This document shows positions 2,306-39,425 of a stretch of 41,515 nucleotides of DNA, one piece after another (position 1 is the stretch's first letter; every line of letters starts with the position of its first letter). Origin of the DNA: an uncultured Methanobrevibacter sp. GTDB lineage: Archaea > Methanobacteriota > Methanobacteria > Methanobacteriales > Methanobacteriaceae. The notes under the pieces were generated by a model, which did no database searches, was not told where the DNA came from, and was given only the letters and a program-made list of their open reading frames with translations. The translations under genes were made by a program, and so were the position numbers. The DNA lies in NCBI GenBank assembly GCA_902789505.1, contig CADAOO010000006.1:1-41515 (forward strand), in the 5' to 3' direction.

Positions 2306-2369
2306 CATACCAAAACATTTATAAACTAAAACATTGTTATATAACAATAGTTATTATAACTCATGTTAT
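2306..2369 (+). promoter_or_regulatory. cysK promoter with two ATAAC-N4-GTTAT palindromes
   Basis: CATACCAAAACATTTATA (2306-2323) contains a TATA box (TTTATAAA, 2318-2325) and is identical over 18 bp to the metY promoter at 7004-7021. Downstream, where transcription should begin (about 2345), lie the perfect palindrome ATTGTTATATAACAAT (2333-2348) and two sites of form ATAAC-N4-GTTAT: ATAACAATAGTTAT (2341-2354) and ATAACTCATGTTAT (2356-2369). A site overlapping the start point suggests a repressor. The predicted leader is about 90 nt. Confidence 0.7.
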
Positions 2370-2435: not shown

Positions 2436-3383
2436 ATGGCAAATATTCCAAAATTAAAAAGAGGAGTTTTGGATAGCATTACTGATGCTATTGGAAACAC
2501 TCCAATTGTAAGATTAAATAATTTAACTGAAGGATTAGACGCAGAAGTAGATGTTAAAATTGAATCATTCAACCCGACCGGCAGTGTCAAAGACCGTGTT
2601 GCAGTTGCAATGATCGAGGATGCAGAAGAAAAAGGTTTACTTAAGCCGGGCGCTACAATCATTGAACCGACCAGTGGAAACACAGGTATCGGACTTGCAT
2701 TTGCCGCAGCTGCTAAAGGTTACAAATTAATTTTAACCATGCCTGAAACCATGTCTGTTGAAAGAAGGAAATTCTTAAGTGTTTTAGGTGCGGAATTAGT
2801 TTTAACTCCCGGTGCTGATGGGATGGGTGGAGCTATTGCAAAAGCTAATGAATTGCAGGAAAACACTCCTGATTCAATTATTTTAGGTCAATTCGACAAC
2901 CCTGCAAATGTAAAAATCCACTCTGAAACTACTGCTCAGGAAATTTTAAGGGACACTGAAGGAAATGTTGATATTGTAATCGGAGGTGTAGGTACCGGCG
3001 GAACAATTACCGGAATAGGTAAAGTATTAAAAGAAGAGGTTCCAGGTGTAAAGATTGTTGCAGTGGAGCCTAAAGACTCTCAAACCTTAGGTAAAGGCGA
3101 AAAAGGACCTCACAAAATCCAGGGTATCGGTGCAGGTTTTGTCCCATCCATTTATGATGAAAGTGTGATTGATGAGATTATCCCGGTTGCAAACGAGGAT
3201 GCCGGAAACACTTTGTTGGCCCTTGCTAAAAAAGAAGGTATATTTTCAGGTATTTCATCTGGTGCAGCAACTTGGGCAGCGTTAGATTTAGCTAAAAAAG
3301 AAGAAAATAAAGGTAAAAGAATAATAGCAATCTTACCGGACAATGGTGAAAGATATCTCTCTGTTGATTGGTTATTTGAATAA
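2436..3383 (+). CDS. cysK: Cysteine synthase (O-acetylserine sulfhydrylase)
   Basis: A 315-residue PLP enzyme that makes cysteine from O-acetylserine and sulfide. The PLP lysine is K52 in NPTGSVKDR; the substrate loop EPTSGNTG, the phosphate-binding GVGTGGTITG and the C-terminal SSGAA and PDNGERY motifs are all present, at the usual CysK/CysM length. AGGAG lies 8 nt before the ATG. The serine acetyltransferase gene follows 59 nt downstream with its own promoter-like site, so both steps of the O-acetylserine route sit together. The promoter shares an 18-mer and palindromes with metY, implying common control by sulfur or cysteine supply (inference). Confidence 0.95.
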   Translation: MANIPKLKRGVLDSITDAIGNTPIVRLNNLTEGLDAEVDVKIESFNPTGSVKDRVAVAMIEDAEEKGLLKPGATIIEPTSGNTGIGLAFAAAAKGYKLILTMPETMSVERRKFLSVLGAELVLTPGADGMGGAIAKANELQENTPDSIILGQFDNPANVKIHSETTAQEILRDTEGNVDIVIGGVGTGGTITGIGKVLKEEVPGVKIVAVEPKDSQTLGKGEKGPHKIQGIGAGFVPSIYDESVIDEIIPVANEDAGNTLLALAKKEGIFSGISSGAATWAALDLAKKEENKGKRIIAILPDNGERYLSVDWLFE

Positions 3384-3390
3384 GAATAAC

Positions 3391-3409
3391 TATATATACC
3401 ATATGTTAT
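3391..3409 (+). promoter_or_regulatory. cysE promoter region with ATACC-ATAT-GTTAT site
   Basis: TATATATA at 3391-3398 could be the TATA box. It overlaps ATACCATATGTTAT (3396-3409), a one-mismatch version of the ATAAC-N4-GTTAT palindrome and nearly the same as ATAACATATGTTAT upstream of metY. It lies 33 nt before the cysE start. Confidence 0.5.
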
Positions 3410-3442: not shown

Positions 3443-4159
3443 ATGTTCAAAAATTTAAGGGATGAAATTAAAGCTATTAAAAAGAAAGATCCTGCAGCAA
3501 GGTCTACATTAGAAATTTTTCTATGTTATCCTGGATTTTATGCATTATTATTCCATAGGGTCAGTCATTGGCTCTGGAATCGTTCTTTAAAGCTTTTGGC
3601 CCGTATGAATTCTACTTTAGCAAGATTCCTTACAGGTATTGAAATTCATCCCGGTGCAACATTTGGTAAACGTGTATTTATTGATCATGGAATGGGTGTT
3701 GTTGTTGGTGAAACCGCAATCATTGGTGATGATGTGCTGATTTATCAGGGAGTAATTCTTGGTGGGACAAGTACAGAAAAAACTAAAAGACACCCGACTA
3801 TTGAAAGAGGAGTAATCATAGGTGCCGGCGCTAAGGTGATGGGTAACATTACTATTGGGGAGTACTCTAAAATAGGTACCGGCGCGGTTGTGCTTAAGGA
3901 TGTTCCTCCGGAATCAACCTGTGTTGGAGTTCCAGGACGTATTGTTAAACGTAAAGGTGTTGCTAACAAAGAAGTGGACCTTGACCATGGAAAACTTCCC
4001 GACCCTGTTGCTGAGGCTATTAGAACAATTGAAAAACATCTTCAGGATAACGATAAGCGTTTCGAAATTTTATTCGATAAACATGAAATCTGTTTGACTG
4101 AAGATATTCGGGATGAACAGGAAGAGTTAGAAGATTTATTTAAGGAAAATGGTGATTGA
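3443..4159 (+). CDS. cysE: Serine O-acetyltransferase
   Basis: Transfers acetyl from acetyl-CoA to L-serine, giving the O-acetylserine used by CysK. The 238-residue protein has the short-type CysE N-terminus ([20 protein letters not shown]), then left-handed beta-helix hexapeptide repeats with the signature [19 protein letters not shown] and [14 protein letters not shown], and GVPGR near the helix end. After that comes a charged C-terminal helix of about 70 residues, longer than the minimal CysE. GAGGTTTATCA precedes the ATG. The HTH regulator begins 2 nt after the stop, so the two genes form an operon. Confidence 0.95.
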
Positions 4160-4161
4160 TT

Positions 4162-4536
4162 ATGAAGCCACCTTGTGAAATTGTTGTATGGTATGTAATA
4201 CCTGCTATTAGGTCAGAATTGGCTAAAGAGCTTTTAAATTTGGGCATGAAACAGAAAGATGTTTCTGAGCTTATGGATATTACTCAGCCGGCCGTTTCCC
4301 AGTATATAACTGATAAACGTGGTAGCGGTATCAAACTCAATGACGATGTTCGTCAAATGATTAAAGACTTCGCTCGCCAATTGTCTGAAGGAAAAGCTAC
4401 TAAAGCTGATTTAATTCCAAGAACATGTAAAATATGTAAAAGTGTAAAGACTGTGGATGTTTTAGAACAATTGAATATTGACAAATCCGACCTTGGTGAA
4501 GATTGTCAAACTTGTATGGGATCTGAAGCAGAATAG
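4162..4536 (+). CDS. HTH regulator with a C-terminal four-cysteine site
   Basis: A 124-residue protein with a helix-turn-helix at about 29-53 (MKQKDVSELMDITQPAVSQYI) of the XRE/Fis type, followed by two CxxC pairs (C89/C92 and C115/C118) that could bind zinc or an Fe-S cluster. It resembles the archaeal family of predicted HTH regulators (COG2522-like, from memory). The ATG at 4162 is chosen because GGTGAT (4151-4156) lies 5 nt before it. It starts 2 nt after cysE and precedes tRNA-Cys and cysS, making it a good candidate for the regulator that reads the ATAAC-N4-GTTAT sites in this block. That link is inference. Confidence 0.8.
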   Translation: MKPPCEIVVWYVIPAIRSELAKELLNLGMKQKDVSELMDITQPAVSQYITDKRGSGIKLNDDVRQMIKDFARQLSEGKATKADLIPRTCKICKSVKTVDVLEQLNIDKSDLGEDCQTCMGSEAE

Positions 4537-4722: not shown

Positions 4723-6072
4723 ATGGATGTTTATTCTACATTAACTCGTAGTAAAGAGACTTTTGAAACTATAAATAAAAACAGAGTTAATTTATTTGTT
4801 TGCGGTCCAACTGTTTATGATGATGCTCACATTGGACATGGAAGAACTTACATCTCTTTTGATACAATTAAAAGGTATCTGGAATATAAGGGATATGCTG
4901 TATTTTATATTCAAAACATCACTGACATTGATGATAAGATTATAAACAGGTCAAAAGAGAGTGGAATTCCGGCACATGAGTTAGCCCGTAAGTTTGAAAA
5001 ACGATACATTGAAGACATGAACAAATTAAATGTCAATGGAGTCAATTTATTTGCAAGGGCAACCGATCATGTTGATGAAATATTGGATCAGATTCAAAGA
5101 TTAATTGATAAGGGATTTGCTTATGAAACTGAAGACGGAGTCTATTTCGAAATAGACAAATTCCCGGAATTCGGCAAGCTGTCCAACAGAAATGTTGAGG
5201 AATTGGAATCCCACAGGGACATAGCTGAAACCACTAAAAGGAATCCTCAGGACTTTGCGCTCTGGAAAAAACGTGTCGGTGTCGATGAGCCTGTCTGGCC
5301 ATCCCCATGGGGTGACGGAAGACCTGGATGGCATATTGAAGACACTGCCATTACAGAATACTACTTCGGACCTCAATATGACGCTCACGGAGGCGGGCTT
5401 GATTTGATTTTCCCACACCACGAAGCTGAAATCACACAGATGGAAGCCGTAAGCGGAAAAGCTCCAATGGTAAAATTCTGGTTGCACACAGGATTTTTAA
5501 ATGTAAACGGGGAAAAAATGTCAAAATCACTTAATAACTTCATTACTATTCGTGATTTGCTGAAAGACTATGAACCTGAAACTTTCAGATTCTTTGTATT
5601 GTCAACTCACTACAGAAGCCCTATTGACTTTTCAAAGGATTCACTTCACCAGTCCGAAAAAAGTCTGGATAGAATCAGAAAGTACTATGAGCTTTTGAAT
5701 GTTGAGGTAACAGAAGATTTTGATTCTGATTATGAAGTTCTGGACAAATGGGCAGGTGAATTCTTTGACAGTATGGATGATGACTTCAACACCCCAAAGG
5801 CTATTGCAGCTATTTTCGGATTGATTAATGATTCCAAAAATGAATTGGACGGATTATCCGATGAGGATAAGGTAGCTATTAAGGCATTCCTGGACGATGC
5901 AAGCCATATATTCGGCGTCAGCTTCGAAGCTGAAGAGGTCAGTGCAGGTTCAGACGATTTGCTTGATTTGATTTCTGAGGTAAGGTCAGAGCTAAGGGCC
6001 AACAAGCAATATGACTTGTCTGATAAGATAAGAAGTAACCTTCAGGATTTAGGTTATGAAATAAACGATTAA
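4723..6072 (+). CDS. cysS: Cysteinyl-tRNA synthetase
   Basis: Charges tRNA-Cys with cysteine. The 449-residue class I synthetase has HIGH at 36-39, GEKMSKSLNN as the KMSKS loop, and the zinc-site residue C27 in CGPTVYD. The usual second zinc cysteine (GWHIEC in the E. coli enzyme) is aspartate here, D207 in GWHIEDTA, while the HHE residues at 232-234 are kept. GGAGAT (4711-4716) precedes the ATG at 4723; an upstream ATG at 4687 would add a low-complexity leader and is rejected. No promoter is visible between the tRNA and this gene, so it may be read from the tRNA promoter. A strong hairpin overlaps its stop codon. Confidence 0.97.
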   Translation: MDVYSTLTRSKETFETINKNRVNLFVCGPTVYDDAHIGHGRTYISFDTIKRYLEYKGYAVFYIQNITDIDDKIINRSKESGIPAHELARKFEKRYIEDMNKLNVNGVNLFARATDHVDEILDQIQRLIDKGFAYETEDGVYFEIDKFPEFGKLSNRNVEELESHRDIAETTKRNPQDFALWKKRVGVDEPVWPSPWGDGRPGWHIEDTAITEYYFGPQYDAHGGGLDLIFPHHEAEITQMEAVSGKAPMVKFWLHTGFLNVNGEKMSKSLNNFITIRDLLKDYEPETFRFFVLSTHYRSPIDFSKDSLHQSEKSLDRIRKYYELLNVEVTEDFDSDYEVLDKWAGEFFDSMDDDFNTPKAIAAIFGLINDSKNELDGLSDEDKVAIKAFLDDASHIFGVSFEAEEVSAGSDDLLDLISEVRSELRANKQYDLSDKIRSNLQDLGYEIND

Positions 6073-6929: not shown

Positions 6930-7066
6930 TTTATATACTAAAATAACATATGTTATATTATATAATGAAAATTATATTTATTTTTGCATTGTGTGTTTTT
7001 AGGCATACCAAAACATTTATATATAAAAAATAACTATTGTTATATAGTGAATATAACACGTGATAT
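6930..7066 (+). promoter_or_regulatory. metY double promoter with three palindromes
   Basis: Two TATA boxes are visible. TTTATATA at 6930-6937 is followed by the perfect palindrome ATAACATATGTTAT (6943-6956). TTTATATA at 7016-7023, within CATACCAAAACATTTATA (7004-7021, identical to the cysK promoter), is followed by ATAACTATTGTTAT (7030-7043) and the variant ATAACACGTGATAT (7053-7066). In both promoters the palindrome begins 13-14 nt after the TATA start, where transcription should begin. Confidence 0.7.
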
Positions 7067-7101: not shown

Positions 7102-8397
7102 GTGACAGATAAGAATTATAGATTAGCAACATTAGGTGTACGTGCAGGACAACAACCAGACCCCGCAACTGGGGCTCAAGCAGTTCCTATTTATCAGACT
7201 ACTTCATACGTATTTAAAGATTCAGATGAAGCTGCAAGGAGATTCGCCCTTCAAGAGTTTGGACAGATTTACTCCAGACTTACAAACCCTACCAGTGATG
7301 TATTTGAAGCAAGAATTGCCGCTATAGAAGGCGGTAACTCAGGTATTTCAACATCAAGTGGTCTTGCAGCAATCTCATACGCTATTTTGAATGTAACCGA
7401 ACCTGGAGATAACATTGTCTCAGCAGACAACCTTTACGGAGGAACTTATCAATTGTTTAATTATACCTTCAAGGACTTGGCACGTGAAGTCAAGTTTGTC
7501 AACTCCCAGGATCTTGAAGCCTTTGAAAATGCAATTGATGAAAAAACCAAAGCTATTTATGTTGAATCAGTAGGAAATCCGAAATTGGATGTCCCTGACT
7601 TCGAAGCATTGGCTGAAATTGCACATTCACATGACATTCCATTAATTGTAGACAATACTGTAGGCGTAGGATTAGTAAGACCATTGGATCATGGTGCTGA
7701 TGTGATTGCCGCTTCAGCCACCAAATATGTCGGAGGTCACGGTACTGCAGTCGGAGGATACATTGTCGATTCAGGTAAATTCAATTGGGGAAACGGCAAA
7801 TTCAACAATTTCACAAAGCCTGACCCAAGTTATCACGGATTGGTATTCTGGGATGCATTCGGTGACGTTCCTGAACTCGGAAATCTTGCATTTACCGTAA
7901 GAATAAGGGCAAGACTTTTAAGGGACTTGGGTGCAACTCAGGCACCTGTGCACAGTTTCATTTTCCTGCAGGGACTTGAAAGTTTGGATGTGCGTGTAAA
8001 AAGACATTCTGAAAATGCACTTAAAGTAGCTAAATTTTTGGAAGCCCATCCTAAGGTTAAATGGGTAAACTATCCGGGACTTGAATCCCATCCGACCTAT
8101 GAAGTCAACAAAAAATACCTAAAAGATCATTTTGCAGGTATTTTAGGATTTGGTGTTGAAGGCGGAGAAGAAGCAGGAAGAAAAGTAATTGAAAAGCTGG
8201 AACTGTTCTCAATTCTTGCAAATATCGGAGATGCAAAAAGCCTTGCAATCCACCCTGCAAGTACAACACACCAGCAGCTAAGTCCTGAAGAACAGGAAGC
8301 AACAGGTGTAACTCCGGACTTCATCAGGCTTTCAATTGGTCTTGAAGATGTGGATGACTTAATTGAAGATTTAAGTCAGGCTTTGGATAGTATATGA
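7102..8397 (+). CDS. metY: O-acetylhomoserine sulfhydrylase (aminocarboxypropyltransferase)
   Basis: A 431-residue Cys/Met-metabolism PLP enzyme that makes homocysteine from an activated homoserine and sulfide. The PLP lysine is K208 in [10 protein letters not shown]. The YSRLTNPT motif near the N-terminus and the insertion with [10 protein letters not shown] that marks the long MetY subgroup are present, and the C-terminus has [14 protein letters not shown]. The start is GTG at 7102, 4 nt after AGGTGAT; a GTG at 7093 lies inside that ribosome site. The promoter shares an 18-mer with cysK. Whether O-acetyl- or O-phosphohomoserine is used cannot be told from sequence. Confidence 0.93.
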
Positions 8398-8474: not shown

Positions 8475-9683
8475 ATGTATTTGGATAACTCAGCAACCAC
8501 ACAAGTAAGTGAGGAAGTTTTTGAAGAAATGAAGCCATATTTCAGAGAAGAGTTCGGAAACCCTTCCACTCTTTATGGAATTGGTCGTGAATCAAAAAAA
8601 GCATTAAATCAGGCTCGCCAAAGGGTAGCTGATGCAATTAATGCAAAACCGGAAGAAATCATTTTCACAGGTGGTGGATCAGAATCTGATAATTTAGCCA
8701 TTAAAGGAATCGCCTTTAAATTAGCAAAAAAAGGTAAGCATATAATCACAACAGATTTTGAACACCCTGCTGTAAAGGAAACTTTATATTTCCTTGAATC
8801 ATTGGATTTTAAAGTTACTTACCTGCCGGTTTATGAAAATGGTGTTATCAAAATTGATGACTTGAAAGAAGCTATAACCGATGAAACAATTTTAATTACC
8901 GTTATGCATGGTAACAATGAGATTGGTACTGTCCAGCCTATTGAAGAAATCGGTAAAATAGCCCGTGAAAAAGGCATTAAATTCCATACCGATGCCGTTC
9001 AGACTTTCGGTAAAATTCCTGTAGATGTTGAGAAATTAAATGTTGACTTACTTTCTTTATCCTCCCATAAAATCAATGGCCCTAAAGGTGTTGGTGCATT
9101 ATATATTAAAAAAGGAACTCGTGTCACTCCGCTTATTCATGGTGGAGGTCAGGAAAGAGGCATTAGGGCAGGTACTGAAAACGTTCCTGGAATCGTCGGA
9201 TTTGGAAAAGCATGCGAGCTGGCTGCAAATCAGCTTGATGAGCATTATGAAAAATTATCTTCAATCAGGGATGAGCTGATTGACAAGGTATTGGGTACAA
9301 TCCCTGAAGCTTATCTGAATGGGGATAAAGAAAAGAGACTTCCAAATCTTGTAAACTTCAGATTTAAAGCTATTGAAGGGGAATCTTTAATTCTCCTATT
9401 GGATGCTAAAGGATATCAGGCTTCAACCGGTTCTGCATGTTCATCCAATAAACTGGAAGCATCTCCAGTTCTGACCGCATTAGGTCTGGACCCTGTTGAT
9501 GTTCATGGATCTTTAAGGATATCCCTATCTCCTGAAAGTGAAAAGTTCGATGTGGATGAATTTGTAGATATTCTTTCAGAGGCCGTTTCAAGATTAAGAC
9601 AGATGTCTCCTCTCTGGAACGATGATTTGGATTATGACGGCGTAATGTGTAAAAAACATGGTGATGACTGTAGGATGTGTTAA
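8475..9683 (+). CDS. nifS: Cysteine desulfurase (NifS/IscS type)
   Basis: Takes sulfur from cysteine as an enzyme-bound persulfide for Fe-S assembly. The 402-residue PLP protein has LDNSATT at the N-terminus, the PLP lysine K199 in SSHKINGPKG, and the persulfide cysteine C322 in STGSACSS on the long flexible loop typical of group I enzymes. The C-terminus carries an extra tail with C392, C399 and C402 (CKKHGDDCRMC) not needed for the fold. The IscU scaffold starts 2 nt downstream. TTTTATATG (8439-8447) could be the promoter TATA box, and AGGGGGAT is the ribosome site. No ATAAC palindrome is seen here. Confidence 0.95.
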   Translation: MYLDNSATTQVSEEVFEEMKPYFREEFGNPSTLYGIGRESKKALNQARQRVADAINAKPEEIIFTGGGSESDNLAIKGIAFKLAKKGKHIITTDFEHPAVKETLYFLESLDFKVTYLPVYENGVIKIDDLKEAITDETILITVMHGNNEIGTVQPIEEIGKIAREKGIKFHTDAVQTFGKIPVDVEKLNVDLLSLSSHKINGPKGVGALYIKKGTRVTPLIHGGGQERGIRAGTENVPGIVGFGKACELAANQLDEHYEKLSSIRDELIDKVLGTIPEAYLNGDKEKRLPNLVNFRFKAIEGESLILLLDAKGYQASTGSACSSNKLEASPVLTALGLDPVDVHGSLRISLSPESEKFDVDEFVDILSEAVSRLRQMSPLWNDDLDYDGVMCKKHGDDCRMC

Positions 9684-10683: not shown

Positions 10684-10743
10684 TTTAAATACTACTAATA
10701 TACTATATATAACTTAATAAATTAAAATAACACGTGTGATATT
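10684..10743 (+). promoter_or_regulatory. comA promoter with ATAACACGTG element
   Basis: TTTAAATA (10684-10691) and TATATATAA (10704-10712) are TATA candidates. ATAACACGTGTGATAT (10727-10742) shares ATAACACGTG and a following TGATAT with the metY site at 7053-7066. Its GTGTGAT part may double as the ribosome site for the TTG start, so a role as operator is less certain than at cysK and metY. Confidence 0.45.
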
Positions 10744-11514
10744 TTGAAATCTTTTGAATTTTTATCAAAAAACAGAGAGCAAAAACCAAGAAGTAAAGGA
10801 ATTACGATGGTTCTGGACAAGGGTTTAGGCCTGGAAACTGCTGAAAGCTTAATGAACATTTCAGGAGAGTATGTTGACTATCTGAAATTCGGATGGGGAA
10901 CTTCAATTGTACATGAACAGGAAATAATAAAAGCAAAGGTTGAAATGTACAAATCCCATGATATTACCCCATACACAGGAGGGACACTTTTTGAACTTGC
11001 TTACATGAATCATAAGCTGGATGAATTTTTTAAGGAAGCCCGTGAACTGGGATTTCCGGCCATTGAAATATCAGACGGATCTACTAATATTCACCATAAT
11101 GATAAATTGAACGCCATTAAAAGAGCAAAAGATGAAGGATTTGAAGTATTGTCAGAAGTGGGCAAGAAGAATCCGGATTTGGATAAGGAACTCACACTTG
11201 AGGAGCGAATCAGATACATGCAGGAGGAACTGGATGCCGGTTCTTCACTTGTCATAGTTGAAGCAAGGGAAGGCGGAAAGAACATAGGCATTTTTGACAA
11301 GGCGGGAAATGCCAAGGAAGATGAAATCGATATAATTTTGGATAAAATAGATGCAGATAAGATTTTATGGGAAGCTCCAAACAAAGACCAGCAGGTCTTT
11401 TTCATACTCAAGCTTGGAAACACTGTAAACTTAGGCAATGTTTCCAGTGATGACATAACCTCCCTTGAAACCTTAAGACAGGGACTGAGGGGAGATACAG
11501 TTGGCAAAATATAA
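10744..11514 (+). CDS. comA: Phosphosulfolactate synthase
   Basis: Adds sulfite to phosphoenolpyruvate to give phosphosulfolactate, the first step of coenzyme M synthesis in this lineage. The 256-residue TIM-barrel sequence shows family motifs including GLGL, DYLKFGWGTS, YTGGTLFE, IEISDG, VLSEVGKK and IVEAREGG. The start is TTG at 10744, 3 nt after GTGTGAT; no earlier Met is in frame, and the next Met is residue 22. The DUF39/ferredoxin gene starts 50 nt downstream on the same strand, so both ends of the CoM pathway may be represented here. Confidence 0.93.
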   Translation: MKSFEFLSKNREQKPRSKGITMVLDKGLGLETAESLMNISGEYVDYLKFGWGTSIVHEQEIIKAKVEMYKSHDITPYTGGTLFELAYMNHKLDEFFKEARELGFPAIEISDGSTNIHHNDKLNAIKRAKDEGFEVLSEVGKKNPDLDKELTLEERIRYMQEELDAGSSLVIVEAREGGKNIGIFDKAGNAKEDEIDIILDKIDADKILWEAPNKDQQVFFILKLGNTVNLGNVSSDDITSLETLRQGLRGDTVGKI

Positions 11515-38816: not shown

Positions 38817-39425
38817 TCAATAAGAAATTACCACACCATTGATGTCAGAGATATCGACCCATGTTGTTATGCCCTTAATCTCGTATAAGGCTCCGTTTTT
38901 ATATTCATGCCTTATTTCCTTGTTGTCGCTTTCCAGATAGACATTGTCTCCTTCAATGTCACCGACCCTTTTGATGATGTCGCCGTATTCATCCGAATCC
39001 GCAACGACAATATCTCCAACATGGATGTCCTTGGATTTGTTTAAGAGAACTTTCTGTCCATCCTGCAGGGTTGGAACCATAGATGTTCCGTCGACATAAA
39101 CGATGACCGGAATTTGGTCCTTGCCTATGATTGAATCTATGCTGATTTTAGGATTTTCCATCCCATATTTTTTGCAGATGTCCTTGATTCCGCTTTTCAG
39201 TGTGGTGATATTCGAATTGGTATCATTCATGACATTCAAGGTGTAGTCGCAGATTTCATCATTCAGCCGGTCAATGTCGATGCTGGAATCGAGGCAATGG
39301 GTTTCAACTTTAACGCTGTCTCCATTAATAAATAAATCCACACTGTTGTCTGATGATAGAAATACTGCAAAAATAGATAAGATCAAAATAAGTATCAATA
39401 TAGCCAAAATGATTTTTTTAGCCAT
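38817..39425 (-). CDS. Signal-peptidase-like S24/S26 membrane protein with Ser-Lys dyad
   Basis: A 202-residue protein with one N-terminal TM helix (about 5-23), an unrecognised domain of some 80 residues, then a peptidase S26-like domain. That domain has the nucleophile S115 in GTSMVPTLQDG, HVGDIVVAD, and K152 in GDIIKRV where S26 peptidases carry the general base. Archaeal Sec11-like enzymes usually have His there, so the Ser-Lys form is of the bacterial or S24 type. It overlaps the aroD gene by 8 nt. Substrates are unknown. Confidence 0.82.
   Translation of the reverse strand: MAKKIILAILILILILSIFAVFLSSDNSVDLFINGDSVKVETHCLDSSIDIDRLNDEICDYTLNVMNDTNSNITTLKSGIKDICKKYGMENPKISIDSIIGKDQIPVIVYVDGTSMVPTLQDGQKVLLNKSKDIHVGDIVVADSDEYGDIIKRVGDIEGDNVYLESDNKEIRHEYKNGALYEIKGITTWVDISDINGVVISY

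Follow-up and report, generated by a model that had tools for sequence, protein, structure and literature searches.

The 124-residue protein encoded immediately behind cysE in a gut Methanobrevibacter genome very probably regulates the cysteine and sulfur regulon of its host through the palindrome ATAAC-N4-GTTAT. The protein is a member of an archaeal family of standalone regulators, each composed of an HTH and a cysteine (Cys) module, which is related to the N-terminal part of ThiN-fused regulators. Four observations carry this reading: the motif is family-specific, it holds a fixed position in promoters, the gene itself lies within the regulon, and protein and site are linked across phyla. 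With the gene, the operator and the predicted regulon now named, the control of cysteine and Fe-S supply in archaea becomes directly testable, and the family-specific motif can be used for reading regulons in uncultured archaea.

The Predicted Regulator Gene and Its Locus

The window, that is, the whole 41,515-nucleotide (41.5-kb) stretch that was analyzed, comes from a methane-producing gut archaeon and contains the following genes and putative operators:

2318..2323, +, cysK TATA-like element TTTATA, 23 bp ahead of the first cysK operator
2341..2354, putative operator ATAACAATAGTTAT, upstream of cysK, perfect ATAAC-N4-GTTAT
2356..2369, second putative operator ATAACTCATGTTAT, upstream of cysK, perfect, 15 bp after the first
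2436..3383, +, cysK, cysteine synthase, likely head of the regulated operon, whose order is conserved
3396..3409, putative operator ATACCATATGTTAT, one mismatch, ahead of cysE, likewise placed in relatives
3443..4159, +, cysE, serine O-acetyltransferase, in one operon with the regulator gene, which begins after a gap of 2 nt
4162..4536, +, regulator gene (P0001), predicted standalone archaeal HTH and Cys-module regulator, 124 aa
4610..4681, +, tRNA-Cys (GCA), between the regulator gene and cysS, a conserved place
4726..6072, +, cysS, cysteinyl-tRNA synthetase
6943..6956, putative operator ATAACATATGTTAT, perfect, distal metY promoter module, 13 bp past TTTATA
7030..7043, putative operator ATAACTATTGTTAT, perfect, proximal metY promoter module, 14 bp past TTTATA at 7016
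7053..7066, putative operator ATAACACGTGATAT, one mismatch, ahead of metY
7102..8397, +, metY, O-acetylhomoserine/O-acetylserine sulfhydrylase
8475..9683, +, NifS/IscS-type cysteine desulfurase, 3′ of metY, order conserved
10727..10740, putative operator ATAACACGTGTGAT, one mismatch, immediately before comA
10744..11514, +, comA, phosphosulfolactate synthase (coenzyme M synthesis)

The reading frame of the regulator opens with an ATG at 4162 and closes with a stop codon at 4534-4536, and its product starts MKPPCEIVVWYVIPAIRSELAKELLNLGMKQKDVSELMDITQPAVSQYITDKRGSG. The original prediction of an HTH protein of this length, two nucleotides behind cysE and ahead of tRNA-Cys and cysS, is thus borne out. 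The HTH spans approximately residues 21-53 and clears the gathering cut-off of the Pfam HTH_3 (Cro/C1-type) model with 23.4 bits against 23, although only about 33 residues are covered; the match was recovered in all 22 aligned family members tested (E ≤ 0.01). Outside the HTH, Cys module included, the protein matches no Pfam or NCBIfam model, and neither collection returned an Rrf2 or LysR match. A PDB sequence search gave generic HTH matches only, and Foldseek comparison of the AlphaFold model, which is all-helical (pLDDT 88), with PDB structures and viral models found nothing at E ≤ 0.001. Some genomes hold several copies of the gene (five in G189, two each in G129 and G161), among which the targets are perhaps divided, and one draft genome has an in-frame TAG in the regulator frame (G162:C35:1428-1784), as a pseudogene or an assembly error might produce.

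Palindromes had been described upstream of cysK, cysE and metY, and all three are found, perfect at cysK and metY and degenerate at cysE. The metY upstream region (6943-7066) is built of tandem promoter modules, each a TATA box followed 13-14 bp on by a perfect palindrome, an arrangement conserved in relatives. The cysK (2307-2323) and proximal metY (7005-7021) promoters have ATACCAAAACATTTATA in common, a conserved BRE/TATA-like element. In genome G028, a perfect palindrome is found at comA. At the far end of the window (39056-39135, reverse strand), ARAGORN predicts a tRNA-Ile whose anticodon is TAT; this may be a misread tRNA, and such an anticodon is, to our knowledge, unusual in archaea.

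A Promoter Element Defined by Position

Perfect copies of ATAAC-N4-GTTAT occur 12 times in the 1.89-Mb assembly, four of them in the window. Across family genomes, which are AT-rich, many matches are due to chance and are often intragenic, and whole-genome totals do not rise over a reversed-motif control; the signal therefore lies in position and not in total count, and positional tests were used. Among non-redundant cysK promoters, 48 of 58 contain a perfect site where mononucleotide shuffles predict 0.12, and the same is true of 35 of 44 metY promoters (0.10 expected). The sites keep a largely constant spacing from TTTATA, for the most part 23 and 38 bp at cysK and 13-14 and 32-34 bp at metY. 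In some family genomes with both cysK and the regulator gene, the cysK promoter contains no perfect site (L127, L128, L130-L132). It could be argued from the genome totals that the palindromes are chance AT-rich sequence, or else elements acting at the RNA level, but this is already contradicted by the roughly 400-fold excess at orthologous promoters, the conserved spacing from TATA, the conservation of the arms around a variable center and the recurrence of the site in other phyla, which together leave such an explanation with a negligible probability.

The archaeal TATA box lies near -27, and archaeal regulators usually repress from sites downstream of it. Sites at cysK and metY begin 13-44 bp past the TATA element, so they fall between the TATA box and a point just beyond the transcription start. 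This is a usual position for a repressor, and it is from position that we infer repression as the likely mode of action. That the protein instead activates its targets is unlikely given this placement, even if the start was itself placed by reference to TATA and the sites of some relatives are found far upstream of the gene.

The remaining perfect sites of the window genome extend the predicted regulon beyond cysK and metY: they precede fdhD, larE (TIGR00268), rnc-metX and moaE, one further site precedes a glutamine amidotransferase operon, and three sit elsewhere. In four other family genomes, intergenic sites are found ahead of cysK, cysE, metY, comA, moaE, larE and thiF-like genes, and also of nadA, metK, an Fe-S protein gene and iscS with a divergent NMT1-type transporter; the iscS, transporter, larE, thiF and moaE names were confirmed as families on representatives and the others were assigned by eye. 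At one locus of G028 (L233), a feoB-like gene for ferrous iron transport, also named by eye, has a perfect site some 200 bp in front of it; if true, this would connect iron with the sulfur regulon.

Conservation in Methanobacteriaceae

The regulator gene is present in 128 of 139 family genomes and in 77 of the 78 good ones. In Methanobrevibacter the order nth, palindromes, cysK, cysE, HTH, tRNA-Cys, cysS, palindromes, metY, iscS, iscU is kept with almost no exceptions. Beyond the family, genomes from the order and the class gave only XRE-type matches of about 20 bits to the regulator, and in the regulator-less genomes tested (one from the family, eight from the order and one from the class), cysK and metY are absent as well, so the absence of the regulator is no independent test. 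The co-occurrence of gene and motif that had been proposed as a check of the original prediction does hold in the family, but gene, motif and pathway travel together there, and co-occurrence within Methanobacteriaceae cannot separate the protein from a mere neighbor; other phyla provide the stronger link between protein and site.

Methanosphaera offers a partial separation of gene and operon. Its regulator gene lies outside the cysteine operon, while five of six cysK loci retain perfect sites in the divergent cysK/cysE region. Orthologues located away from sulfur genes in genomes that keep the palindrome would have counted against a regulatory role, and this is not the pattern seen, since in several Methanosphaera loci the gene adjoins that for glutamate-cysteine ligase.

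The Same Half-Sites Upstream of Distant Homologues

Profile searches found standalone homologues in the Odin-/Thorarchaeota phylum, in the phylum of genome G051, which groups with a Bathyarchaeota locus, and in two further phyla, the phylum names being inferred from shared sequences. For an unbiased scan, all inverted repeats with 4-bp arms and spacers of 0-10 were collected from the 250 bp upstream of 80 distinct extra-family homologues. Out of 256 arms and 11 spacers, the best repeat in the subclade that resembles the window protein in its ‘WY’ N-terminus was TAAC-N4-GTTA (8 of 17; as this subclade was drawn up with the data in view, the Fisher test on it, p = 7e-6, is descriptive only), and the best repeat in the remaining homologues was TAAC-N3-GTTA (21 of 63). 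Over the whole set, dinucleotide shuffles predict 0.51 N3 sites and 0.43 N4 sites; these were found upstream of 26 of 80 (at most 3 in 200 shuffles) and 10 of 80 homologues, respectively, counts that do not represent 80 independent events because close relatives share upstream DNA by descent. Neither site occurs within 250 bp of the other 47 of 80, notably in a Thermoproteota clade. This clade, which has the N-terminus PCEVAVK (L292-L316), shows neither the N3 nor the N4 spacing upstream and may use a different operator or serve a different role.

Many of the sites upstream of homologues are found 14-75 bp ahead of the ATG, a placement suggestive of self-regulation. Others lie between the HTH gene and sufB (L201) or before iscS (L206), and a 20-bp tandem site precedes a molybdopterin-oxidoreductase operon that ends in the HTH gene (L200). 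Site spacing tracks the HTH tree, in which the clade that includes the window protein (support 99/93) has mostly N4 sites; the alignment has few columns and the deeper forks are open, and for members of the family the N4 label was taken from sites in the regulon instead of the promoter of the HTH gene.

Gene neighborhoods point in the same direction. Of the 71 standalone homologues, 27 have a sulfur or Fe-S gene no more than 1.5 kb away; none of the 9 ThiN-fused homologues does, and none of the 27 control segments, the latter a rough baseline as all come from Methanobacteriaceae. Examples include HTH-sufB-sufD-sufS-sufU-sufC (L201), HTH-iscS-iscU (L206), HTH-cysK-metY (L209), cysK-HTH-fdhD with sufS genes, and thiF-HTH-moaE. 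A gene of about 465 aa in a sulfur-site operon (L281) looks like glutamate-cysteine ligase by eye; it has no Pfam or NCBIfam match and was therefore left out of the count.

These findings bear on the proposal that an unlinked transcription factor binds the palindrome and that the HTH gene is only a member of the regulon or a neighbor. Inseparability within Methanobacteriaceae speaks for it, yet distant homologues in several phyla carry these half-sites immediately in front of them, amid differing neighbors and with a spacing that follows the HTH tree, and we consider the proposal highly improbable. A cysteine/sulfur regulator encoded in the regulon that it controls, as first proposed, is well supported by the promoter sites, the operon order and the cross-phylum link.

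The Cysteine Module and What It May Sense

Two CxxC pairs after the HTH had been noted in the protein, and both are present (C89/C92 and C115/C118); a further cysteine, C5, had escaped mention. The idea that the pairs form a four-Cys site has fared less well. Outside the family, 70 of the 71 standalone homologues have C5 and all 71 have C89 and C92, and C115 and C118 occur in 52 and 47 of 71; inside the family, C5, C89 and C92 are conserved in 18 of 18. Several short homologues without the second CxxC (e.g., L159-L163) retain the operator and often adjoin cysE, cysK or metY. With the second pair absent from these short forms, C5, C89 and C92 are the minimal shared set and the four-Cys site is a local elaboration, and the near-invariant cysteines can now be told apart from the accessory ones. 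Many homologues carry an extra CxxH in the middle that the window regulator lacks; those fused to ThiN carry C5, both CxxC pairs and the middle CxxH.

A set of three cysteines would be compatible with an Fe-S site or with a site between subunits. That these cysteines sense is plausible, with the balance about even between Fe-S or thiol chemistry on one side and a structural metal combined with some other signal on the other. In one version of the latter, which we regard as doubtful but a real possibility, the regulator binds the palindrome, its cysteines hold structural zinc, and the signal comes from a small molecule (cysteine, O-acetylserine or sulfide) or a partner protein such as CysK or CysE. 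In its favor, zinc sites typically show CxxC...CxxC spacing, and CymR of Bacillus partners with CysK; moreover, the Cys module is common to ThiN-fused homologues, which own a distinct domain whose type is known to bind ligands, and a structural metal would also explain the same cysteines there. Against it, loss of C115/C118 in several lineages while C5/C89/C92 persist would be unusual for a single four-Cys zinc site, and the 124-aa protein has no other ligand-binding domain and is modelled as all-helical and not as a beta zinc ribbon.

The reading favored overall is of a sequence-specific repressor, probably dimeric, that would bind the half-sites TAAC/GTTA in the stretch from the TATA box to the transcription start, either between the two or covering them. 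Its targets would be cysK-cysE-regulator, metY and comA, together with metX, fdhD, larE/thiF and moaE at other places in the genome; with its own gene inside the cysK-cysE operon, it would repress itself. The Cys module, C5 and C89xxC92 aided by C115xxC118, would sense cysteine or Fe-S sufficiency by way of a bound Fe-S cluster or a thiol or metal adduct, such that repression would be lifted upon sulfur shortage.

Comparison with Known Regulators

The closest relatives are the ThiR-type (HTH-ThiN) proteins, which have the same MKPPCEIV-like (MxPPCEIV) N-terminus, the HTH and a C-x2-C-x9-C-x2-H...C-x2-C module. The window regulator differs from them in that it has no C-terminal ThiN (no match), has lost the middle C102/H105 pair and has cysteine and sulfur genes as its predicted targets. 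One fused homologue (L093) combines a ThiN match with a TAAC-N3-GTTA site 33 bp upstream. ThiN is described as a repressor domain (Hwang et al. 2017, PMC5350279, as cited in PMC12029414). SepCysE, too, has an N-terminal HTH.

With CymR and CysB, the regulator shares (as predicted) the control of cysK, cysE and Met/Cys sulfhydrylases; CymR belongs to the Rrf2 family and CysB to the LysR family, and by family search the regulator is unrelated to either. SurR is likewise archaeal, CxxC-containing and sulfur-linked; it is an ArsR-like protein that acts as a redox switch on the genes of hydrogenase and of sulfur metabolism, and its fold and targets are different. It is the sulfur regulator of Thermococcales (PMC12162507). 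EnfR/Tfx of Thermococcus was considered and rejected, as it is described with a sigma-70 region-4-like HTH and an alpha+beta domain and without mention of cysteine. No description of the family was found in the accessible literature on ThiR, Methanobrevibacter cysE/cysK and archaeal Fe-S regulators, though one may exist in subscription journals; the literature searched covers archaeal ISC, SUF and SMS assembly and names no regulator of cysteine or Fe-S supply for methanogens or Asgard archaea.

In genomic logic, the regulator resembles IscR and SufR, which are also small HTH regulators with few cysteines, located in or beside isc, suf or cysteine genes and likely self-repressing. IscR is an Rrf2 protein and SufR a winged-HTH protein, and the regulator has no Rrf2 domain. 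Tentatively, and with a little less than even confidence, the family may be an old archaeal regulator of cysteine and Fe-S supply, an IscR-equivalent of separate origin that would sense Fe-S or a sulfur donor via C5 and CxxC and control cysteine synthesis, desulfurases and sulfur carriers through TAAC-N3/4-GTTA in Methanobacteriota, Asgard archaea, Thermoproteota and DPANN, with the ThiN-fused regulators as its co-derived kin.
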